Below, in pieces: positions 62,250-62,286 of a DNA stretch of 64,000 nt. A program made the translations under genes and the position numbers. Numbering within the stretch: position 1 is the stretch's first letter; the number at the start of each line of letters is the position of its first letter. Source of the DNA: Myxococcales bacterium (GTDB lineage: Bacteria; Myxococcota_A; Polyangia; Nannocystales; Nannocystaceae); assembly GCA_014240065.1 (NCBI GenBank), contig JAAZXR010000007.1:1-64000 (forward strand), written 5' to 3'. Under the pieces are notes generated by a model. The model did no database searches. It saw nothing but the letters and a program-made list of their open reading frames with translations, and had not been told where the DNA came from.

Positions 62250-62257
62250 CGGCGCGG

Positions 62258-62286
62258 ACGTTACAAATCGCCTCCGCATGCGTCAA
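62258..62286 (-). promoter_or_regulatory. Promoter of hom operon (leaderless type)
   Basis: On the minus strand: TTGACG (62281-62286), a 17-bp spacer, TAACGT (62258-62263), then exactly 8 bp to the ATG at 62249. This is a near-consensus sigma-70 promoter whose start point should coincide with the start codon. Confidence 0.7.

Follow-up and report, generated by a model that had tools for sequence, protein, structure and literature searches.

Promoter-type -10 boxes adjoining start codons suggest widespread leaderless or near-leaderless messages in a genome of the Nannocystaceae

A TANNNT motif about 12 bp before the start marks leaderless genes across bacteria, and in genomes of high GC content TAnnnT is all that remains of the signal (Zheng et al. 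2011, PMC3160421). The same paper reports the signal for 8 of 33 delta-proteobacterial genomes, with a mean of 15.8% of genes, a share that resembles the one found here; myxobacterial genera were looked for in its main text and none is named there, whereas the present analysis deals with Nannocystaceae and other Polyangia and traces conservation gene by gene. In Mycobacterium tuberculosis, 26% of the genes with a primary start site have been mapped as leaderless (5' UTR -5 to +5), with TANNNT located 7–12 bp upstream of the start sites and no -35 consensus (Cortes et al. 2013, PMC3898074). The mycobacterial and the Nannocystaceae genome have the box in common; however, TANNNT is preceded by TGN in 7% in M. 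tuberculosis and in 38% here, and the mycobacterial leaderless set is experimental, while ours is predicted from sequence. For Deinococcus-Thermus, PMC12340547 describes a -10 region that adjoins about 30% of the ORFs, with an optional -35, and an adjoining box that experiments have identified as the promoter of leaderless genes; the arrangement is alike, but the phylum is different. As for the myxobacteria, no mapped leaderless transcriptome or start-site data were found in the literature searched, and such data may exist.

The genome considered here (4.72 Mb in 235 contigs, 97.7% complete) has as its closest named relative, judged by enolase, an uncultured Nannocystaceae bacterium (92% protein identity). 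The window, i.e. the whole stretch of 64,000 nt that was read in detail, comes from contig 213, and the genome-wide test was carried out on a sample of 958 kb, about one fifth of the genome. In this sample 755 genes were called with a home-made gene finder, which relies on in-frame hexamer statistics and a start-codon prior only and never uses the upstream sequence. Genes that are divergent, or at least 40 bp away from a co-oriented neighbour, were regarded as unit-leading (n = 529), and the operon-internal genes (n = 191) formed the comparison class. All starts are predicted ones, and the counts cover the strict TANNNT consensus only. The position of a box is given as that of its first T relative to the start, with -12 corresponding to a spacer of 6 bp and -14 to a spacer of 8 bp.

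A preliminary description of the window, whose guess of the family is borne out by the enolase comparison, had listed eleven genes with a -10-like hexamer exactly 8 bp before an ATG or GTG start, and direct reading finds every one of them (11/11) in its place (Table 1). Ten of the eleven fit TANNNT, the exception being the SNF2 helicase, and the TTG-type -35 elements at a distance of 17 bp, assigned to SNF2, crp and hom, are all present. The extended form TGCTA, said to be shared by several of these genes, does occur, but in three of the eleven. The chosen starts agree with those of the coding-only gene finder in eight of the eleven cases and differ from them for the kinase, crp and DUF3108; the crp start of the preliminary description is backed by the orthologs, against the coding-only call. 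Pfam supports every gene identity tested (the oxoprolinase was outside the scan), and the Rfam scan of the window gave 0 hits, with no known RNA family (a riboswitch leader, for instance) above the threshold. TANNNT is found at -14 in 7 of the 44 unit-leading genes of the window (0.21 expected, P ~3e-9) and anywhere at -17 to -11 in 15 of the 44 (1.5 expected).

Table 1. Predicted promoter elements and start codons in the window
Feature	Sequence	Position	Strand	Start	Remarks
hom (homoserine dehydrogenase) -10	TAACGT	62258..62263	-	ATG at 62249	spacer 8
hom -35-like	TTGACG	62281..62286	-		17 bp from -10
hom start codon	ATG	62247..62249	-		coding-only call agrees; conserved in orthologs
eno (enolase) -10	TACTCT	62352..62357	+	ATG 62368	spacer 10; absent from the preliminary list
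4HBT thioesterase -10	TACCAT	8707..8712	+	8721	extended TGC
SNF2 helicase hexamer	TATCCA	12164..12169	-	12155	not TANNNT; TTGCCG at 17 bp
protein kinase -10	TACGTT	14404..14409	+	14418	extended TGC; coding-only start 14469
ECF sigma factor -10	TACCCT	26266..26271	-	GTG 26257	central TA common with pseudouridine synthase box
pseudouridine synthase -10	TACACT	26270..26275	+	GTG 26284	divergent to ECF gene
adenosine deaminase -10	TACCTT	29712..29717	-	29703	extended TGC
crp-like regulator -10	TACAGT	44149..44154	+	ATG 44163	TTGTCT at 17 bp
DUF3108 protein -10	TACCAT	45876..45881	+	45890 (proposed)	coding-only start 46277
gene named oxoprolinase in the preliminary description, -10	TAGGCT	53695..53700	+	53709	
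lgt -10	TAGGGT	57291..57296	+	GTG 57305	

The genes for the ECF sigma factor and the pseudouridine synthase diverge with 26 bp between them (window positions 26257–26284), and their two -10 boxes, one on each strand, overlap in a single central TA: AGGGTACACT. Such a symmetric promoter would launch each of the two messages at its start codon or close to it. Boxes on both sides are present in only 2 of 14 close divergent pairs (gap ≤80 bp), this pair included; the other pair has a gap of 77 bp, hence its boxes do not overlap.

In the 958 kb, TANNNT was found at -17 to -11 of 103 of the 529 unit-leading genes, against 18 expected. The counts of the first T are 11 at -17, 10 at -16, 9 at -15, 17 at -14, 16 at -13, 34 at -12 and 6 at -11, over a background of about 2.6 per position further upstream. 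The genome-wide plot proposed as a check thus displays a sharp TANNNT peak just upstream of the starts, and not the flat profile with which the proposal is incompatible. Since -12 is the highest position, 6 bp is the commonest spacer (34 genes, compared to 17 with a spacer of 8 bp), and all spacers from 5 to 11 bp are in use. The peak is sharper for genes with one possible start (15 of 95 boxed at -12), and ATG/GTG codons inside genes show no enrichment of TANNNT (0.1–0.25% at every offset). A distance of exactly 8 bp is therefore not a rule: the mode is 6, the range is 5–11, and the spacer varies even among orthologs of one gene. The 8-bp class is real but secondary, accounting for 7 of 15 motif genes in the window and for 10 of 85 outside it (Fisher P = 0.003, with no correction for having picked this spacer), and a local excess, picked by eye, was taken for the rule.

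Alignment on the box revealed G at the second base upstream of it in 71%, and the extended -10 (TGN) is found in 38% of the motif genes versus 15% of the controls (P = 2e-4), while a -35-like TTG 16–18 bp upstream of the -10 is overall not enriched (9.7% versus 12.5% in controls). Of the 34 members of the 6-bp class, 29 carry a pyrimidine at -1, compared to 54% of the genes that lack the motif (P = 2e-4), a pattern to be expected of transcription that begins on the purine of ATG/GTG; in this genome the preference is clear only for spacers of 5–6 bp. Shine-Dalgarno-like 4-mers precede 6 of the 103 motif genes, which is under the general background, as compared to 87 of the 423 unit-leading genes without the motif (P = 3e-4) and 84 of the 191 operon-internal genes, before which TANNNT is scarce. 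The counts by gene class indicate that Shine-Dalgarno sites are used inside operons and a promoter-adjacent start by many first genes. TTG start codons occur in 2 of the 103 motif genes versus 41 of the 423 without the motif (P = 0.008).

Conservation was traced in the upstream regions of orthologs of six genes, with TANNNT sought at -18 to -11 of the candidate start, in relatives nearly all of which belong to Nannocystaceae (protein identity mostly ~45–60%, for enolase 63–92%). The box is present in all 23 orthologs of lgt, 22 of 24 of hom, 16 of 19 of crp, 15 of 19 of adenosine deaminase and 8 of 13 of eno, where it is kept in the sister species as well; the pseudouridine synthase is the weakest of the six, with 13 of 24. 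Pooled, the box is kept in 97 of 122 orthologs versus 3–10 of 122 in eight other 8-nt bins, a value that measures conservation and not frequency, because the six genes were chosen for a box in the window copy. The spacer drifts within one gene, with 8–10 bp prevailing in hom, lgt and crp while many adenosine deaminases have 6 bp, and many orthologs of hom in the family carry TTGAC at a similar place. In the pseudouridine synthase family, 11 of the 24 orthologs have no adjacent -10 box, yet the start codon is kept; as the box is missing from about half of them, the promoter layout differs from genus to genus. Ahead of the crp-like gene (44110–44163), many orthologs have retained a TTG-type -35, then TTCGT and then the -10 box, which looks like an operator, perhaps for autoregulation.

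Samples that were not selected for the box extend the peak beyond this genome: 32 of 216 genes versus ~4 expected in four other Nannocystaceae genomes, and 45 of 288 versus ~8 expected in seven Polyangia genomes of other families. These relatives are of the same class as the present genome, and the class name Polyangia follows the GTDB placement of Nannocystaceae. No peak was seen in one Myxococcota genome of another class (3 of 60 versus 4.8 expected), or in two negative controls, E. coli (4 of 46 versus 6.0) and a Neisseria/gamma set (11 of 83 versus 18.1). The Rhodococcus plasmid pRHL1, an accessory replicon with predicted starts that was to serve as the positive control, gave a weak and uninformative signal (5 of 123 versus 3.4 expected), and the A/T-rich Pedobacter set, which has a high background, a broad modest excess (86 versus 62).

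These observations are very probably explained by sigma-70-type promoters that give roughly one fifth to one quarter of the unit-leading genes leaderless or near-leaderless (0–5 nt) messages. The boxes would be -10 elements of the housekeeping sigma-70 type, i.e. TANNNT, often TGN-extended and usually without a recognisable -35, from which RNA polymerase would start on the first codon itself or no further than ~5 nt upstream; the ribosome would then engage the 5'-terminal AUG/GUG instead of a Shine-Dalgarno site, and the operon-internal genes would rely on Shine-Dalgarno sites. With a -10 box directly before the start codon, the message should begin at or a few bases from the first codon, and it is from four features observed directly (the motif itself, its peak just before the starts, its tendency to exclude Shine-Dalgarno sites and its retention in orthologs) that we infer where transcription starts and that translation is leaderless. 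The features found here, namely the ~12-bp peak, the absence of Shine-Dalgarno sites, AUG/GUG starts and conservation in orthologs, are those of the known leaderless class. The proposal of widespread leaderless messages thus gains support from the peak, the Shine-Dalgarno depletion and the range of box-to-start distances conserved in orthologs. The accompanying idea that transcription starts on the codon itself fits the 6-bp spacer, which places the usual start there, but for the 8-bp class leaders of 0–2 nt are predicted instead; the breadth of the spacer (5–11 bp) suggests that a part of the motif set may have leaders of 1–5 nt.

Or perhaps the genes with spacers of 8–10 bp start 7 bp after the box, leaving an ultrashort leader of 1–3 nt? 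This variant, which falls within the 0–5 nt of the explanation given above, is in our view less likely than not. It agrees with the spacers of the hom, lgt and crp orthologs, most of which hold 8–10 bp and not 6, and with the restriction of the clear -1 pyrimidine preference to the shortest spacers. However, the pooled 8-bp class shows no purine enrichment at the would-be start points, its positions -1 and -2 are pyrimidine-rich too, and a longer discriminator could still put the start on the codon. Far less probable is a signal for translation and not transcription, for example a ribosome-binding element that contains A/T, as in Bacteroidota, which the closeness of the box to the start codon and the missing Shine-Dalgarno sites could bring to mind; against it speak the promoter anatomy (TA...T, the extended TGN, and in hom a TTGAC at a distance of 17 bp), the start-site pattern of the 6-bp class, with a pyrimidine at -1 and a purine at +1, and the scarcity of the box at operon-internal genes, which need a translation signal but no promoter. 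That the hexamers are a by-product of composition or coding, or that starts were picked to fit them, might be suspected from the by-eye choice of starts in the preliminary description, three of which depart from the coding-only call, but this reading is refuted, with hardly any probability left to it, by a peak that persists with starts called blind to the upstream sequence, is sharper for single-start genes and absent at internal codons, and is conserved in orthologs.

The motif adjoining the start codon can also help to place starts, as had been proposed. Of the 423 genes whose called start lacks the motif, 52 show TANNNT at -14 to -11 of another in-frame ATG/GTG close by, whereas shifted bins give a mean of 15, an excess from which it follows that about 37 starts in the 958 kb were probably misplaced by coding-only calling. 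With the alternative starts added, we estimate that ~23% of the unit-leading genes (roughly 123 of 529) carry the strict TANNNT, a figure that rests on predicted starts and is a lower bound for the motif.

The mechanism was described for bacteria no later than 2011, and the general picture of bacterial leaderless genes is unchanged; this lineage is a new, well-supported case that has hardly been documented before. We also put forward, tentatively and with more doubt than confidence, that in Polyangia as a whole a large share of the units is expressed from leaderless or near-leaderless messages, with gene-specific spacers (6 bp, or 8–10 bp in hom, lgt and crp) kept by selection; if so, there would be two translated classes, one strictly leaderless and one with a leader of 1–3 nt. 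For expression work, lgt, hom and crp offer simple conserved promoters, as predicted here. Nannocystaceae, and probably other Polyangia, join the bacteria whose starts escape gene calling based on Shine-Dalgarno sites.
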